Origin: Acidaminococcus intestini DSM 21505
GTDB taxonomy: Bacteria > Bacillota > Negativicutes > Acidaminococcales > Acidaminococcaceae
Length of the DNA stretch: 64,000 nucleotides
Direction: 5' to 3'
Assembly (NCBI RefSeq): GCF_000425045.1
Contig: NZ_AULA01000001.1
Location: 62,001-126,000 of the forward strand
Below are positions 19,632-61,907 of the stretch, one piece after another. Numbering within the stretch: the first letter of the stretch is position 1; each line of letters begins with the position of its first letter. Position numbers and translations under genes: made by a program. Under the pieces are notes generated by a model. That model made no database searches and was not told where the DNA came from. It worked only from the letters and a program-made list of their open reading frames with translations.

Positions 19632-19656
19632 GGGGCCTTTTTTTTCTTTATTTTAC

Positions 19657-20180
19657 TCAGCCCAAAAAACAAGCTGATTTGATGAAGTACGTATGTCCAT
19701 TGCTTTGAGAAAGATTAATCTGAAGCAATGGGCTCATGGCCTCTCGTACAACAGTGCCCTTCACGGTTGGGGATAGCTATCGCCTGGGCGCTTTCTTTCC
19801 TAACCTTCCCTTTTTTTAGTCGCTGCAGAAATCGCGCCGAGTAAATGCAGTTACTTGCCATCCTTGCTTGAGAAATGATTCTTTTGAGAGCAAGGATGGC
19901 ATGACGATTCGCAAGAAATTACCTACCACAATCTCATATTAAAGTCGCCCGAAAGATGCCTTCGGCGAGCAAGCCACTTCTTGAAATTTTTTCGGATGAT
20001 CCAGGAAACCTTTTTCGCCTACGGCCCATATCGATCCATCTGCATTGTCAAACGCGGCAGGCTTCCTAGAAGTACCCAAATCTTGTACGACGTCATCAGC
20101 CTGCTTCGCGTTTTTCCTAGCATCCGGGCCAATCTGGAACCATATTTGAAAATGGTAAATGGAAAAAGGCAACGGCCTTG
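19657..20180 (+). repeat. Structured intergenic repeat, locus I (H-alpha' then H-alpha)
   Basis: The 620-base gap between the convergent MATE and ACT genes holds no gene. It contains a small hairpin (H, 19657-19677) with a partial alpha module (hairpin 19695-19733), then a second H (about 19819-19841) and a nearly complete alpha module (hairpin 19856-19901, conserved tail to about 20178). The tail shares long near-identical blocks with 51838-52174, for example TAGGAAAAACGCGAAGC on the minus strand near 20105-20121. Short open frames here are not conserved as protein in the other copies. Confidence 0.8.
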
Positions 20181-41766: not shown

Positions 41767-42350
41767 TATTTTTTTGCTGGGTCTGCAAATTACGCCGAGT
41801 GGGTACATAGAAAGCCGCGTTCAAGCTGTCTATTGGCCGAATGGCTGTCCTGCATGCAAGGCTGCGGCTGTCGAGTAAAAAAAAACTAACGCTCTAGCTT
41901 TGATGCTGTGGTTCTTAAAGACCGTGAGGGAAACTAAAGGTCGAGCCGACACCAAAGCCCCCCTCCCCTTTTTACTCGGTGTGCAAATCGTGCCAATTTG
42001 ATGCAGTGACGCGCTCCCATTGCTTGAGAAAGATTCGTTCGATTGCAACGGGAGCATGCCGATTCGTAAGAAATCGCGTACTGCATTTTCATTCCTAAAT
42101 CGTCCGAAAAAGTGGAGTCCTTGGGCGAGCCCGTCTTGGTATTATTTCGTTTTCTTTAGAGGAAGCATGATTTGCCTGAGTCCCCTATTCAAAAAAAGGA
42201 ATTGAAAGAAAACGCGAAGGCTTTAACCAACCGCATTAGACAAGTAACTTACGTCGTCGATGAAAACATGAGCTCTTCGCAACGGGAACCATCTGATCGG
42301 AATTTGTAAAAAGCAAATGGAATAAAAGACCGGAAGGCAAAAACATGACA
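41767..42350 (+). repeat. Structured intergenic repeat, locus III (H, beta, H, alpha)
   Basis: The roughly 1 kb between secA and the hpf terminator has no convincing gene. It shows a weak H box (41771-41800), a beta module (GCTTTGATGCT near 41897, ACCGTGAGGGAAACT near 41920), a second H (41976-41997) and an alpha module whose main hairpin is 42013-42055 (GCTCCCATTGC/GCAACGGGAGC). A diverged tail runs to about 42350, where AAATGGAATAAAAGACCGGAAGG matches locus V. From 42350 to 42610 I see only degenerate sequence. Confidence 0.75.
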
Positions 42351-42616
42351 AAATGATTGCAAATCGTCTTGGTAAGTCGGATTGATGCCGCACATCGAGT
42401 ACAAAAGGAAAACACGAAAGCGGGACGATCTTGCCGCTATTGTGATTTCTATATTTCAAAAAGATTGTCTTCTTATAAAAGTCAAATACAATTCCAGAGC
42501 CCTAAACCGGGCATCAGCGTGGATCCAGTTTATGATTTCTCAGATTTGGCAGCGGATGTGAGGCGCCCCTTCTTCATCAATCCAGCCCGATTTTTGGGCT
42601 AGTTAAAACAGCTCCT

Positions 42617-44791: not shown

Positions 44792-45562
44792 TTATTTTTC
44801 TTTTGGCGCTTCGCCGAACCATTTCTTGTAAATCTTATCGTATTCGCCGTTTTTCTTTAGTTCGCCCAGGGCTTTATTGATTTCGCCAGCCAGTTTGCTG
44901 TCCTTCTTGACGGCAAATCCATACGGTTCAGCATCCATCGTTTCACCGACAATCTTATCCTGGCCCTTGCCTTCCTTCGTCAGGAAGTAAGCCCCAACAG
45001 GACGGTCAATGATGACCGCATCGGCATTCTTATTGTTGAGTTCAAGGAAGACTTCCGCATTCGTGTTGAAGGTCTTGACCTTGGCGCCCGGTACGGAAGC
45101 GGCCTTATCGGCCCCCGTCGTCCCAATCTGGACGGAAATCGTTTTGCCTTCAAGGTCCTTCAGGCTCTTGATGTTGTTTTCATCATTTCTGACAATGATA
45201 GCAAGACCGGACGTATAATACGGATCGGAGAAAGTCACGGCTTTTTTACGTTCTTCCGTAATGCTCATGCCAGAAGCTACAACATCGATATTGCCCGAAT
45301 TGATGGCTGGAATCAGGGCATCAAAGCCCATATTCTTAATTTCCACGTCACGGCCCATTTGCTTGCCAATGGCGCGGATCAGATCCATATCAAAGCCCGT
45401 GAAATCCTTGGAATCCTTTTCCTGGAATTCAAAAGGGGCAAAGGTCGGTTCCGTGCCTGCACGAAGGACCTTGGATTCCTTAGCTGCATCCTTACCGCCG
45501 CAGCCAGCAGCAAACATCGTCAAAGCGGCTAACATTCCAACAAGTACGGTACGTTTTTTCAT
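44792..45562 (-). CDS. Amino acid ABC transporter binding lipoprotein
   Basis: About 256 residues with lipobox FAAGC and the family-3 binding fold (FAPFEFQEKDSKDFTGFDMD, DALIPAINSGNIDVVASGMS). GGAGG lies 7 bases before the ATG at 45562. First gene of the operon with the permease and ATPase. It is related to, but clearly diverged from, the two tandem binding lipoproteins upstream (45992-47596). Confidence 0.93.
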   Translation of the reverse strand: MKKRTVLVGMLAALTMFAAGCGGKDAAKESKVLRAGTEPTFAPFEFQEKDSKDFTGFDMDLIRAIGKQMGRDVEIKNMGFDALIPAINSGNIDVVASGMSITEERKKAVTFSDPYYTSGLAIIVRNDENNIKSLKDLEGKTISVQIGTTGADKAASVPGAKVKTFNTNAEVFLELNNKNADAVIIDRPVGAYFLTKEGKGQDKIVGETMDAEPYGFAVKKDSKLAGEINKALGELKKNGEYDKIYKKWFGEAPKEK

Positions 45563-45607
45563 GGCTGTTCCTCCAGATAGACTTGATATTTTTAAGAAGC
45601 ATATGAC

Positions 45608-45636
45608 ATTATACATCTGAATGAATTTTTATACAA
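45608..45636 (-). promoter_or_regulatory. Promoter for the amino acid ABC operon
   Basis: TTGTAT, 17-base spacer, perfect TATAAT on the minus strand. Confidence 0.7.
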
Positions 45637-45645
45637 TGGGAGATT

Positions 45646-45686
45646 TTAAAAAAAGCAGCCTAAGCTAACAGCAAGGCGTAGGCTGC
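45646..45686 (-). terminator. Terminator just upstream of the ABC operon promoter
   Basis: GCAGCCTA pairs with TAGGCTGC on the minus strand and is followed by seven T. It isolates the operon from upstream read-through. Confidence 0.75.
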
Positions 45687-45734
45687 GGCGTCTATGACCG
45701 GGGGATAAGAGTCAAGGAAAAAAACGAAAGGGAA

Positions 45735-45930
45735 AAGATGACGAAGCGTTTCGAAATCACCTTGGTGAGGCGAATCGGTTTTCGCCGCCCTAAAGCAAAA
45801 AAACTGCGGCAACGGTTTGCTCATTCTGCATCAAGCCTTAATAAGAAGAGCGCACCGCTCTGAACGATTGACAGGTGTTCAGATCGGTGTTCTTTACGTT
45901 TTTCATTGATTGCCTTCCATAAGTTTTCAG
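45735..45930 (+). repeat. Structured intergenic repeat, locus IV (gamma hairpin)
   Basis: No gene lies between the terminators at 45686 and 45954. The gamma hairpin at 45848-45900 (GCACCGCTCTGAAC, loop GATTGACAG, GTTCAGATCGGTGT) matches 48741-48796 and 52358-52409, with changed but paired bases. A short stretch after it (TTTTTCATTGATTGCCTTCC) also resembles the others. Confidence 0.6.
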
Positions 45931-45953
45931 CCTGACAGCCTCCTATACACATA

Positions 45954-45987
45954 GAACGCCCCTGCCGATTATTCGGCAGGGGCGTTC
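45954..45987 (-). terminator. Hairpin after the first tandem binding lipoprotein gene
   Basis: GAACGCCCCTGCCGA, loop ATAA, TCGGCAGGGGCGTTC: a perfect 15-base stem 5 bases after the stop. Confidence 0.8.
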
Positions 45988-45991
45988 TCAC

Positions 45992-46780
45992 TTATTTCAT
46001 TTCACCAAACCATTTGGTATAGATTTTCTTGTATTCACCGGAGTCTTTCAGTTCCTTCAGGGCTTTATTCATGCCGTCCACAAGGTCTTTCTTGTCCTTC
46101 GGAGCTGCAATGCCGTAAAAGTCGCCTTTTTTCGGCGTGCCAACGGCTTTGGCATAGCTGGACCCTTTCTGTTTCAGGAAGTACTGAAGCACGGGCAGAT
46201 CACTGATGACAGCATCAACGTTGCCATTTTTGAGTTCGATGCAGGCAAGATCCGACGTATCAAAATTCGTAACTTTGGCGCCTTCAATCTTTTCAGCTTC
46301 CTGGGCGCCCGTTGTGCCTAGCTGGACACCGATGCGTTTGCCTTTCAGATCATCAAAGGACTTGATTTCATTGTTGTCTTTCTTGACGATGACCATCAGT
46401 CCCGATTCATAATAGGGATCTGTAAAAAGGACCTGTTTTTTCCGTGCGTCCGTAATAGACATACCGGAAATGATTACATCAATATTGCCGGCATTCATGG
46501 CAGGAATCAAGGCATCAAAGCCCATGCCCTTGATGGTCACTTTTTCATAGCCCATCTTCTTACCAATGGCTTCTATGAGTTCCATATCAAACCCTGTCGG
46601 TTTATCCGCTTCTTCGCTGGGGAACTCAAAGGGGGCAAAAGAAGGGGCCGTCCCGACGACAAGTTCCTTCTTTTGGGGCGCGGCTGCCTTTTTGTCATCT
46701 TTGGCCGCATTGCCGCCGCAGCCAGCCACACCCAAAATAAGCGCTGCGAGGAGGCACATCATCTTCAGACTTTTTTTCAT
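45992..46780 (-). CDS. Amino acid-binding lipoprotein, tandem copy 2
   Basis: About 262 residues, family-3 periplasmic-binding protein with lipobox GVAGC. No permease or ATPase gene accompanies it. It is a close paralogue of the next gene upstream (46805-47596): several blocks are identical, notably one of about 35 residues around GVQLGTTGAQEAEKIEGAKV. The pair likely arose by tandem duplication and may feed the GlnPQ-type transporter downstream or another one. AAGG lies 9 bases before the ATG at 46780. Confidence 0.9.
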   Translation of the reverse strand: MKKSLKMMCLLAALILGVAGCGGNAAKDDKKAAAPQKKELVVGTAPSFAPFEFPSEEADKPTGFDMELIEAIGKKMGYEKVTIKGMGFDALIPAMNAGNIDVIISGMSITDARKKQVLFTDPYYESGLMVIVKKDNNEIKSFDDLKGKRIGVQLGTTGAQEAEKIEGAKVTNFDTSDLACIELKNGNVDAVISDLPVLQYFLKQKGSSYAKAVGTPKKGDFYGIAAPKDKKDLVDGMNKALKELKDSGEYKKIYTKWFGEMK

Positions 46781-46804
46781 GGTTTTCATCCTTTCTTTCC
46801 CATC

Positions 46805-47596
46805 TTATTTTGTTTCTGCGCCAAACCATTTGTCATGGATCTTTTGATACTCGCCGGAATCCTTCAGTTCCTTGAGGGCTTTATTGAGTCCATCAATGAG
46901 CTCCTTTTTCCCCTTAGGTGCCGCGATTCCGTAAAAATCACCCTTTTTCGGGGTTCCAACGGTCTTTGCGTAGGAAGCGCCGCCCTTTTTAAGGAAATAC
47001 TCCAGTACCGGCAGGTCACTGATAACGGCGTCCACATTGCCGTTTTTAAGTTCCAGGCAAGCAAGGTCCGACGTGTCAAAATTCGTGACCTTGGCACCTT
47101 CAATCTTTTCGGCTTCCTGGGCGCCCGTAGTGCCTAGCTGGACACCAATGCGTTTACCTTTCAGATCAGCAAGGGAATGGATAACCGTATTATCCTTACG
47201 AACAATGGTCATGAGACCGGATTCATAGTAGGGATCGGTGAAGAGAAACTGTTTTTTTCGCTCTTCCGTAATGGACATACCTGCCATGGCTACATCAATC
47301 TGGCCGGCATTCATGGCCGGGAAGAGGGCATCAAAGCCCATGCCCTTAATGGTCACTTTTTCATAGCCCATCTTCTTTGCCATGGCCTTGATAAGATCCA
47401 TGTCAAAGCCCGTGATTTCCCCATCCTTCCCATCAGGGAATTCAAAAGGAGCAAAGGAAGGCTCCGTGCCTACAATGAGTTCCTTCTTTTGTTGTGCCGC
47501 ATCCTTACTGCCGGAATTTCCACACCCAGAAAGGCTGGTTACAACCACTGCAGCAAGAATGCCTGTTAAGGCCAATTTTTTCACCCAACTTTTCAT
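46805..47596 (-). CDS. Amino acid-binding lipoprotein, tandem copy 1
   Basis: About 263 residues, lipobox SLSGC, family-3 binding fold (FAPFEFPDGKDGEITGFDMD, GFDALFPAMNAGQIDVAMAG). Ends 24 bases before copy 2, so both are probably one transcript. Leader regions of the two paralogues differ while the ligand-binding core is nearly identical, so they may bind the same or closely related ligands. GAGGGG lies 9 bases before the ATG at 47596. Confidence 0.9.
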   Translation of the reverse strand: MKSWVKKLALTGILAAVVVTSLSGCGNSGSKDAAQQKKELIVGTEPSFAPFEFPDGKDGEITGFDMDLIKAMAKKMGYEKVTIKGMGFDALFPAMNAGQIDVAMAGMSITEERKKQFLFTDPYYESGLMTIVRKDNTVIHSLADLKGKRIGVQLGTTGAQEAEKIEGAKVTNFDTSDLACLELKNGNVDAVISDLPVLEYFLKKGGASYAKTVGTPKKGDFYGIAAPKGKKELIDGLNKALKELKDSGEYQKIHDKWFGAETK

Positions 47597-47622
47597 CCGT
47601 CTCAACCCCTCATCTTATTTAT

Positions 47623-47839
47623 AAATATACAATTCAGCTGACCTGGTCTTCGCCCCCACACTCGCCTGCTGGAAGGTTCGCTCCTAAGCGTTCTGGCTCC
47701 CCACTACTGCTCCTCTCGCATTTTGCGGCAGGTCTTACTTCTAAGCTGCACCGTGCTCACAGCGGATTCCGCTGCTTACGTGGATCGTTTTGCCTGCAAC
47801 TGGCATCGACTTTCAACCACAGACCTGAATTGTATATTT
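47623..47839. repeat. Untranslated 217-base segment bounded by a 15-base perfect inverted repeat
   Basis: AAATATACAATTCAG (47623-47637) and its exact complement CTGAATTGTATATTT (47825-47839) flank 187 bases with no gene, between the divergent lipoprotein and HD-GYP genes. The flanks are AT-rich and the interior is C-rich (many CTCC and CCAC runs). Could be a small inverted-repeat element, or paired operator/promoter sites facing both genes. Confidence 0.55.
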
Positions 47840-48670: not shown

Positions 48671-48830
48671 AAATCGGCGATGGACTTACCGCCTTACCAA
48701 AGCGAAAGATTCGAAAGCAAAAGACCTAAAAAAAGATAACGAGAGCACTGCTCCGAACAATTGACACGCGTTCGGAGAGGTGCTCCCTTTTTATTGTTTA
48801 CCATTTTTCGTTTGACAGTCTCCCGGTCTT
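48671..48830 (+). repeat. Structured intergenic repeat, locus V' (delta and gamma)
   Basis: Downstream of the HD-GYP gene: AATCGGCGATGGACTTACCGCC (delta, 48671-48692), almost identical to 57439-57460, then the gamma hairpin 48741-48796 (GCTCCGAAC, AATTGACAC, GTTCGGAG) with a following T run, matching 52358-52409. It may act as a terminator for the HD-GYP gene. Confidence 0.7.
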
Positions 48831-50104: not shown

Positions 50105-50270
50105 TCAAGCGGGAAAGACGGAAAGTGCTTTGATGCTAAAAGACCGTAACGCCGGACCCAAACCGCCCCCTGACGGGGGAACGGGTCCGAAATAATTCGC
50201 CCTCAACCATGTTTCTCGGACTTTTGTTGACGCTCTCTTCTCATTATTCGGAGAAAAATCGCGCCGAACA
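50105..50270 (+). repeat. Structured intergenic repeat, locus VI (beta and H)
   Basis: Beta module with GCTTTGATGCTAAAAGACCGT, then a double hairpin 50153-50189: outer CGGACCC/GGGTCCG, inner CCCCC-TGA-CGGGGG, then AATTCGCCC. It ends in an H hairpin TTCGG/CCGAA (50247-50268) that lies inside the 3' end of the GNAT gene. Same order as at 61749-61907. Confidence 0.75.
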
Positions 50271-51552: not shown

Positions 51553-52440
51553 TTTTTACTCGAGGCAAAAAATTGCTCCGATTCATCATGGTTGTAAGTT
51601 TTGCGTTGTGAGTTTTGAGTAAAAACCCCTAAAAAGCCCCAACTCCGGCGCCAAACCGTGTCCCTGCGTGACTCGGCGCCGAACAAGTTTTTCGATAATA
51701 CAGTCCTGCAACCGAATCGCTTCAACGATGTCTTGCGATTAGCAGTTTTGGCCCATCGAAAAAATGCTCCTTGCTCCCGCTCGTTTGGAGACGTCGGGCC
51801 CCTTACTTTTTACTCGGAGCAAAAATCGCTCCGAGTCGATGCAGTTACGTGCCTTCCTTGTTTGAGAAAAGATTCTTTTGAAAATAAGGAAGGCATGACG
51901 ATTCGTAAGAAGTGGTGTACCACAATTTCATTCCTAAGACGCCCGAAAAAATACCGTCGTCGGGCGGGCCGCTCCTAGGAATTTTTTCGGATGACAGAAG
52001 AAACCTTTCTCGCCTACGGTCCCTATCGACCCATCCGCGTTGTCAAATGCGGCGAGCCTCCTAGCAGAAACCCACTTCTAGTACGGCGTCGTCGGCCCGC
52101 TTCGCGTTTTTCCTAGCATCTGGGCTAATCTGGAGCCATATTCGAAAAAGGCAAATGGGAAAAAGACCGGAAGGGAAAACGTAACGTTGCTTCCTAAATC
52201 GTCCTAGCTGGCGGCGGATTGCCGCTATGCGGCAAATGTGTTGTAGAGGCCACGTTTCTTATCGATGAAAAACATTTCAAAGGCGTTTTTAAGGCAAAAG
52301 ACCAAACGGCGACGGTTCGATGCATCCTGCATCGAGCCTAAAGAAACTGTGCGTAATGAGAACACCGCTCCGAACAATTGACACGCGTTCGGAGCGGTGC
52401 TCTTTTTTTATTGCTTTCTCTTTTTCGTGTGGCAGTCCTT
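51553..52440 (+). repeat. Structured intergenic repeat, locus V: longest composite (H, beta, H, alpha, gamma)
   Basis: The 1 kb between the convergent DUF805 gene and the autotransporter remnant has no gene. In order: H (51560-51581), beta-like GGCGCCAAACCG (near 51647), H ACTCGGAGC/GCTCCGAGT (51812-51836), alpha with main hairpin 51850-51895 and conserved tail to about 52174, a divergent stretch, then gamma 52358-52409. This is the fullest copy and the best reference for the family. Confidence 0.8.
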
Positions 52441-52533: not shown

Positions 52534-54467
52534 TCATTTCATTTTCTGCTGCAATTCTGCAACAATCTTCATGAATTCCTGGATCTTTTGGTCCAGGAGG
52601 GTGTCGTTGCATTTCAGTTCTTCGTTTTCGGCAATGAGCTGGGCTTTGCTGACGCCTTCGTACTGACTGGTGCAGCCGAGTTTGACGGAGACGCCGAAGT
52701 TCCACATGTTTTCGCCGCCCGTCGATCCGCCGAGGCTCAGTAAGGTGCGGTTATCAGGCCGATAGAAGGCACCGATGGCAAGGGCCGTGTTGCCGCGGCA
52801 GCTGCCGGTACCAACGGCAAGGTCAAGTTTGTTGCCCCGATCAAAGTCAAGGGGATAGAAGGCTGCAAGGGCTGCGGCATGAGCGCCGACTTTATCGACG
52901 CGGTCATCAAGGCGTTCGACGCGGCTGCTGACGTCACGAACTTCTTTGGTCGCTTCATAGAGCTGACTGCCGTTGATGGCCTCTTTCGAAGTCGGGCTCA
53001 CTTCCCCATCGGTGACGTTCGTGATCTTGTTGTGATTCATATCGATGCCGGGGTTGGAAATGGTCGGTCCGCCGTTCTTGATGCTGACTTTGCTGACGCT
53101 GATGTTGCCTTTGAGGGCGACGTTGACATTGCTGTCGGGCCGTTGCAATATTTTCGCTTCTTATAATGCCAAGCTTGCCGTCTTTTTCAAGTTTCGTTTC
53201 GCCTTTGTCGTCAGCTGTGAGTTTCGTTTCAATGGCAGCGGGTATGCCGGCATCGACGGCCTTTCCCGTATCGTTGATATCCGTGCCAGTGCTGCCCGCA
53301 TCGGCATTCCCCGTATCGGTATTACCCGTTTCAGTGCCGCCTGCATCCGGTACTGCCGTATTGTCGTTCTTCTCTTCGTAGGTGACTTTGTCGGAACCGG
53401 AATCCTTATAGTTCGTGCTGATGGTCCAGTTGCCGCTGCCATCGTTTTCGAGTTTGATGCCATCACCTGCTTTGAGGCTGATGGACGTACCAGCCATTTC
53501 CGTAGCGGCTGTGAGCTGGGCCACGTTGACGGCGTCCGTATCGGCAGAACCGGCGGCGACATAGGTAATGCGGCGCGTGTTGATCTTTCCGTTGGCATCG
53601 GGGCCACCGACGAAGACGGCGGCTAAGGTCGGTTTCCAGACGTAGCTCGTGTCTGTGGCTGTGACGCGCAGAAGAGGATGATTTACTTTGGTATTGTCGC
53701 CGTCGACAGCATTTTTCACCGTATTCTTGCTGCCCAGGACATAGATGTGCTAGCCATTTGTGACCGTATTATAGAACCCGTCGACGAAGTTCATCTGTGT
53801 GGCGCTGTCATTGAGTTCATTCGTGTTCCCCGCGAGAATGTTGCCAACGCCCATGACCTACGACAGATAGCCTTTATCGACTGTATTGGCCCCACCCATG
53901 ACCATAACCTGGCCGCCGCTTTCGAGAATGGCTTTTGCAGGAGCTGGGACAATTCATCCCATTTTCCTGCTTGGGCAAGGACAGGCGCTTGTCTTAGAAT
54001 TTCATCGCTGCCCTTGACATCGCGATAGGAATTGGTGACCCTGTTCGCGGCACCGTAGATCAGGGCTAAATTGGCGTTTTCTGTATAGTTGACCTGCCCC
54101 ACAATGGAACTTCCGCGCCATCAAAGGGATTGCCCCTTAACTTGACGCCGTTGAGGCTTCCCATGATGACAACGGTGGGCGCCTTTTCTGCATTGCCATC
54201 TCCCGTAATTTGGACAGGCTGCCCATCTGGGCTAAGCAAGAAGCAAGGTCCGGCAATGGGATGTGTCAGATCCGACGTAACCAGCATCGTTGGCGTTGCT
54301 ACATAGGCCGGCAAGGCCGCCCCGCCAAGGATCATACCCAGCACGGCCGCCGTCAGGATGCGTACCAACTTTTGAGCCGCCACTTTGCCCCGCCCTTTGG
54401 CAAGTTCGAAAACAACGACATAGCCATTTTGAACGAGACTCCAGATGATTTTGCAGATTCGGTTCAT
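52534..54467 (-). pseudogene. YadA-like trimeric autotransporter adhesin, disrupted
   Basis: Surface adhesin remnant on the minus strand. An ESPR-type leader (MNRICKIIWSLVQNGYVVVF, from 54467) and signal end lead into a YadA-type head with GxxNxV repeats, a stalk with AAGSADTDAVNVAQL, the neck GSQLYEATKEV, and a C-terminal YadA anchor (SLGGSTGGENMWNFGVSVKL) with a short extra coiled coil. The frame breaks three times (near 54105, 53975 and 53155) and has in-frame TAG codons at 53858-53860 and 53750-53752. All parts are colinear, so it is one gene in decay rather than several genes. It shows that the lineage has an outer membrane. Confidence 0.88.
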
Positions 54468-57797: not shown

Positions 57798-57882
57798 GAA
57801 TACGTCTCCGGGCGAATCATTTGTCCCCTTCCCCCGTTAGGGGGGCGGTTTGGGTCCGCGCCTTCCGGTCTTTATGCTGACC
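57798..57882 (-). repeat. Inverted beta module
   Basis: On the minus strand this reads GCATAAAGACCGG, GCGGACCCAAACCG, CCCCCTAACGGGGG and ATTCGCCCGGA, matching the plus-strand beta copies near 50150 and 61795. It is the only clear copy in opposite orientation. Confidence 0.75.
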
Positions 57883-61748: not shown

Positions 61749-61907
61749 CCGGGTCTTTGATCTTTCAAGACCTTGGGAAGCGGCTGGAGGATGCGGACCC
61801 AAACCGACCCTGACGGGAGAACGGGTCTGAAAAGATTTGCCCGGAAACATGTTCTTCGGCTTTCTGCGGGTGCGCCCTTCTTATCATCGGAGCAATCTTT
61901 GCTCCGA
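61749..61907 (+). repeat. Structured intergenic repeat, locus VIII (beta and H)
   Basis: GGTCTTTGAT box, then CGGACCC (61794-61800), inner CCC-TGA-CGGG, CGGGTCTG (61822-61829), GATTTGCCCGGAAACATGTTCTTCGG, and an H hairpin TCGGAGCAA/TTGCTCCGA (61887-61907). It abuts the stop of the convergent reductase gene. Order and spacing match locus VI. Confidence 0.75.

Follow-up and report, generated by a model that had tools for sequence, protein, structure and literature searches.

Results

The window, a 64-kb stretch of contig C1 from an Acidaminococcus genome of 2.28 Mb in 55 contigs (the home genome), carries four hairpins, each of which is one part, called P2 here, of a non-coding unit of ∼155 nt that can extend to ∼365 nt. 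The genome is placed in Acidaminococcus by relatives of its ACT-domain protein, which share 76-80% identity with it. Two of the units stand in tandem behind a MATE gene. The first, a type B unit with a CAGCCC P1, occupies 19650..19801 (+; nhmmer and covariance model, 98 bits) and begins 18 nt past the MATE stop codon, with its P2 at 19692-19736; the second, at 19813..20169 (+; model match of 125 bits), is near full length with P1, P2, P3, and extension, and its P2 at 19856-19901 is the hairpin singled out by the first-pass annotation. A third unit (41969..42338, +; P2 at 42012-42056), recognized by sequence similarity as well as by profile and covariance model matches, lies between secA and a hibernation factor gene, in an intergenic gap that measures 1007 nt in the home genome vs ∼315 nt in the sister species. 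A unit fragment comprising the P1 end only is found at 42564..42608 on the minus strand (nhmmer E 9.5e-4, weak). The best copy in the window is the full-length unit at 51807..52175 (+; 141 bits), in which P1 at 51815-51833 and P2 at 51850-51895 are followed by P3 and the extension. Nearby lie a P1-like fragment, TTTTTTACTCGAGGCAAAAAATTGCTCCGATTC (51553..51585, +), which resembles the P1 of other units and gives a weak model match (E 0.0045), and module X (51631..51799, +), another repeat, frequently found before or after units, whose BLAST copies span query 92-260 at about a dozen genome sites. The P2 bounds are taken from the family alignment.

From 5′ to 3′, the unit consists of TTTTTACTC, P1 (GGAGC-AAAAATC-GCTCC), GATTCGATG, P2, CGTAAGAAG, GTACCACAATCTC, and P3 (GCCCGA..TCGGGC), often followed by an extension of ∼200 nt. 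Profile searches return a basic unit of ∼155 nt, tandems with a ∼160-nt period, and extension to ∼367 nt. The stretches 19808-20167 and 51800-52163 share 80% identity across 364 nt, and 41968-42149 matches the second of them at 73%; because the match continues well around the hairpins, P2 is one element of a longer repeat. With the 51.5-52.5 kb region as query, BLAST gives 60 matches in the home genome, which form a mosaic of modules.

The window holds other repeats and features. A different long-stem repeat, GAGCACCGCTCCGAACAATTGACACGCGTTCGGAGCGGTGCTC with a T tract, is terminator-like and occupies several intergenic regions (48737-48820, 52354-52437, and 45807-45895), and a further interspersed repeat occurs in both orientations at 50139-50256, 57798-57873, and 61793-61895. 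A clear raiA RNA (RF03072, 198 bits) lies at 47629-47833 (−) and precedes a gene for the binding protein of an amino-acid transporter. Three adjacent paralogous genes at 44792-47605 (−), by eye periplasmic binding proteins, share 68-77% DNA identity, and the YadA-type stalk and anchor encoded in two overlapping frames at 52534-53719 (−) suggest a broken trimeric autotransporter gene.

Folding and the P2 Loop

All four hairpins called in the first-pass annotation proved to be real and to lie where it had placed them. The predicted RNA folds of the P2 elements at 19692, 19856, 42012, and 51850 have energies of -18.9, -27.0, -18.1, and -22.0 kcal/mol, with z scores of -5.4, -7.2, -3.2, and -5.8, respectively, and none of 200 shuffles was as stable; the stem at 42012 contains an A.C mismatch. 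The P2 hairpin folds on both strands. The full-length unit at 51807..52175 is likewise more stable than each of 100 shuffled sequences (z -3.5). Over whole units, z reaches -9.8 and -4.5 for units of the sister species (G007) and of a third species (G005), compared to -3.5 and -3.0 for home copies, so that the units of the other species fold more strongly, in keeping with decay of the home copies. The extension of the unit at L076 1676-1850 in the sister species is one long imperfect hairpin of ∼160 nt; the home counterpart differs.

The annotation had also described a fixed loop. Within the window this description stands, as TTGAGAAA-GATT is exact in all four copies, and the genome contains 11 matches to the pattern TTGAGAAA(N0-2)GATT, 7 of them inside units, vs 0 for a reversed-pattern control. 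It does not extend to the family, however: many home-genome copies carry the TTTAAAAAGAT-like loop that is the usual form of the wider family, and the loops in the sister and third species are different, gone, or shrunk to a few nucleotides. Moreover, the flanks GATGCAGTTACG, CGTAAGAA, and GTACCACAAT on both sides are conserved too, because the copies are dispersed repeats with 70-80% identity over 160-360 nt. The TTGAGAAA-GATT loop is a mark of shared ancestry inside a subgroup and not an invariant.

Covariation

That the stems differ between copies and stay complementary was the central observation of the first-pass annotation, and it holds in larger alignments, where two-sided changes pervade both P1 and P2 and covarying pairs are found. 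In a 31-unit MAFFT alignment, to which no structure was fitted, standard pairs occupy 89.1% of stem cells, vs 75.0% (sd 0.9) for shuffled and 34-48% for slid partners, and two-sided changes are seen in 105 cells vs 35 in the control. In an alignment of 89 copies fitted to the covariance model, and thus to the structure, 87.9% of cells are paired (68.4% shuffled, 35-46% slid), and 22 of the 23 pairs show two-sided changes. RNAalifold recovers the P2 stem unaided. The outer extension of P2 (TTACG/CGTAA) is weaker, with 77% of cells paired and many A.C cells.

Significance was assessed using a custom G-test with a tree-aware null over all column pairs, of which there are several thousand. The top four column pairs are all P2 pairs; the first has an E of 0.025 and is the only one below 0.05, while the next three range from 0.23 to 0.85. 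If the test is restricted to the 23 proposed pairs, E becomes a few hundred times smaller and ∼5 pairs drop below 0.05, the scaling being an estimate.

The clearest evidence comes from inspection of the stems between species. The sister species carries unrelated but complementary stems between the conserved flanks (CAGCCCGCTTC../..GAAGCGGGCTG, CAACCTGCTTC../..GAAGCAGGTTG, and GCCGCCCAC../..GTGGGCGG), and a stem of the third species reads CGACCCCATTGC../..GCAATGGGGTCG. When taken with the pervasive two-sided changes, the replacement of P2 by unrelated complementary stems in the sister species indicates that something kept the hairpin paired.

Distribution across Genomes

A covariance model built from 31 units matches at least 69 sites in the home genome, at least 20 in the sister species, which is the nearest relative by its hibernation factor (92% identity), and at least 3 in the third species; these copy numbers are lower bounds, as the searches score limited candidates per genome. 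DNA BLAST alone missed the family in the two other species except for 30 nt, whereas the structure model found both. The model found no unit in six other Acidaminococcus, nor, with stricter filters, in 50 genomes from 17 other genera of the family. Phage and plasmid collections and a pattern scan of IMG/VR gave no phage, plasmid, or viral contig match. Rfam searches of the window at the gathering cutoff and of four loci at E up to 1 returned no relevant family; matches to mir, Rev72, and PK-BYV fell below the family cutoffs and were taken as chance. We note that contigs C37, C85, C109, C120, C52, and C23 are among many in the sister species that end inside these repeats. The assembly evidently breaks there, and its copies are therefore undercounted. 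Three of its units lie within a few hundred bases of a SAM riboswitch (L078 694-793, +).

Placement behind Stop Codons

Genes were called from open reading frames and codon usage, and neighbor distances were determined for 67 home units. Of these, 24 have a gene no more than 12 nt from their 5′ end, and every one follows a same-strand stop codon, at distances clustered between -7 and +7 nt; no gene-abutting unit stands against an opposite-strand start. Among the 49 units with both neighbors known and no overlap, 19 are stop-proximal vs 1.22 expected from random position and orientation within the same gaps, and 200,000 such draws never gave more than 8. Gaps between divergent genes hold 1 of 50 units, so promoter regions are avoided. 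The same stop-proximal placement is seen in the sister and third species, and more than half of the copies are not adjacent to a stop codon. The genes upstream of units are ordinary chromosomal ones, such as those for a β-lactamase, peptidase T, and an HtpX-like protease (assigned by eye from sequence).

At alignable orthologous sites in one or both of the other species, the gene is intact up to the shared stop codon and has no unit behind it; an ordinary hairpin with a T tract is often present a short way downstream. Exact insertion boundaries are not readable, since comparable loci are few and orthologues are only 72-90% identical. Several home arrays have a terminator at the far end, adjoining the next gene, and an array between stop codon and terminator would be transcribed as 3′ UTR. 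From this arrangement, many copies are predicted to be 3′ UTR sequence.

G.U and A.C Cells in the Stems

Where selection acts on a transcribed RNA strand, G.U should be tolerated in helices and A.C should not. Counted as cells and not as independent events, the G.U:A.C ratio in the home genome is 38:39 in P2 and 28:21 in P1; it is 25:18 in stop-proximal copies and 41:42 elsewhere. The P2 stems of the sister species are almost perfect, with 11 G.U and 0 A.C, although 8 of the 11 G.U fall in one pair and may represent one inherited state. As G.U and A.C are equally common in home stems, the counts do not single out constraint on one RNA strand. The first-pass annotation had proposed selection on a folded RNA or DNA cruciform; the maintenance of pairing bears this out in part, but selection on RNA goes unsupported by the balanced P2 count. 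A DNA hairpin, or pairing kept solely in spreading source copies, explains the data equally well. Most simply, spreading copies would maintain their pairing and settled ones would lose it; a DNA hairpin at mobilization, or hairpin-templated correction, is possible.

Discussion

We consider it rather probable that a few Acidaminococcus species carry the unit as a dispersed hairpin repeat of the non-autonomous type, with pairing preserved chiefly in copies that spread and with many copies located in 3′ UTRs. Behaving as a mobile but non-autonomous repeat, such a unit would have reached dozens of intergenic positions, in some places as tandem copies. It would settle preferentially on the coding strand just past a stop codon, so that P1 starts no more than ∼16 nt from the stop and the whole unit joins the 3′ UTR. 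Copies competent to spread would need the hairpin and so keep their base pairing, whereas settled copies would decay, as expected from the near-equal G.U and A.C counts in home P1 and P2 stems. Stop-proximal copies may alter the mRNA 3′ end, much like REP elements. Mobility is what we infer here, since no transposase, ends, or target duplication was identified: target-site duplications and a partner transposase were not found, no terminal inverted repeats are shared by all copies, and the only Y1_Tnp match in the genome has an internal TAG and is separated from the closest unit by almost 10 kb. Of the terminal inverted repeats expected of a MITE, here in the form TTTTTACTC...GAGTAAAAA, TTTTTACTC stands at the unit 5′ end, and GAGTAAAAA appears at the far end in a few cases only (C30:15862 and window positions 41872 and 51616), not in general. 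Within-species identity of 70-87% gives no sign of recent movement.

The strict same-strand placement behind stop codons in three species, together with the strong covariation, could instead reflect a host-maintained 3′ UTR RNA element, in which P1 and P2 are selected in each copy for ribosome release, mRNA decay, or 3′ end formation. P1 does lie in or near the zone within 15 nt of the stop codon where REP-dependent ribosome stalling is reported in E. coli (PMC12306157), and the nearly perfect sister-species stems (G.U without A.C) point the same way. We nevertheless regard this explanation as rather unlikely: the home G.U and A.C counts are balanced, with a slight G.U excess in stop-proximal copies, most of the sister-species G.U cells may be a single inherited state, over half of the copies sit away from stop codons, and six further Acidaminococcus species lack the unit. 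The absence of a strand bias between G.U and A.C would suit a DNA process (hairpin-templated correction, template switching at inverted repeats, or gene conversion between copies) that made the compensatory changes with no selection on structure, as would the capacity to fold on both strands and the swapping of entire stems between species with flanks retained. However, ∼10% of P2 cells in the home genome are uncorrected mismatches in settled copies, so many that hairpin correction cannot be efficient, and two-sided changes at single pairs are common; such a process is in our judgment unlikely to account for the family.

Ordinary intrinsic terminators whose stems drift freely while remaining paired find support in the third species, in which a U tract follows P2 in 3 of 3 copies (TTTTTTCGC twice and ATTTTGTAT), and the unit-free orthologous sites often have a plain terminator behind the stop. 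Elsewhere the fit is poor, as a U tract (≥6 T in 9 nt) is absent from 67 of 68 home copies, the remaining one having 7 T in 9 nt, and from 18 of 18 sister-species copies. Conservation of P1 and flank sequence is also unexpected for terminators, and several arrays have a separate terminator downstream of the unit, beside the following gene; we hold this account to be very improbable. It is also distinctly unlikely, though conceivable, that the family originated as a mobile 3′ end cassette of stop codon, P1, and terminator, the state seen in the third species, which would have spread by replacing or displacing native terminators of unrelated genes. In that case P1 would recruit some factor as translation or transcription ends, and P2 would be free to turn over provided that it pairs. 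An integron attC array was rejected, as the units follow ordinary chromosomal genes on scattered contigs, in both orientations, and form gene-free tandems.

The dispersed, non-autonomous repeat that we favor is best read as resembling in kind the bcr1, REP, and BOX hairpin repeats. The bcr1-bcr18 repeats of the B. cereus group are interspersed and non-coding, with tens of copies per genome, a narrow host group, and features of mobile elements (PMC6542083, PMC2267715), and a shared secondary structure is predicted for bcr1 (PMC2267715). The present unit is likewise a dispersed, taxon-restricted, structured non-coding repeat in the 100-400 bp range, here confined to Acidaminococcus; it differs in taxon and sequence, in the clustering of its 5′ ends at stop codons, and in having the boundary TTTAT at just 9 of 67 unit 5′ ends. 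Like REP/BIME elements, the units are intergenic palindromes, some of them close behind stop codons; some REP copies sit no more than 15 nt from a stop codon, where they may influence translation (PMC12306157). Unlike the 20-40 nt palindrome given for REP in PMC3733652, the unit spans 155-365 nt with several hairpins, and alignment A1 shows no conserved GTAG/CGTC-type tag column at the foot of P2. The REP/RAYT pairing was rejected too, as no RAYT-like partner lies near the units and the lone Y1_Tnp gene is interrupted and distant. BOX, RUP, ERIC, and NEMIS share the stem-loop, and many such families have been described (PMC2267715). An intrinsic terminator likewise places a hairpin behind the stop, and the U tract in the third species is alike, but nearly all home and sister-species copies are without one. 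Because the unit departs from REP in size and RAYT, from bcr in TTTAT, and from terminators in the U tract, we class it as a new family within a known type of element.

The stem turnover between sister species probably exceeds that of BOX, RUP, ERIC, and NEMIS. The open-access literature yielded no description of Acidaminococcus repeats and no report of such a repeat family for Negativicutes. The family adds a well-supported, covarying, stop-codon-anchored repeat from Negativicutes of the human and animal gut. Since its three species present three states of P2 (terminator-like, turned over, and decayed), it offers a tractable case for how hairpin repeats reach 3′ UTRs and for the way in which stem sequences shift while pairing persists. 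It also illustrates that a dispersed repeat can show strong covariation without this implying a host RNA gene.
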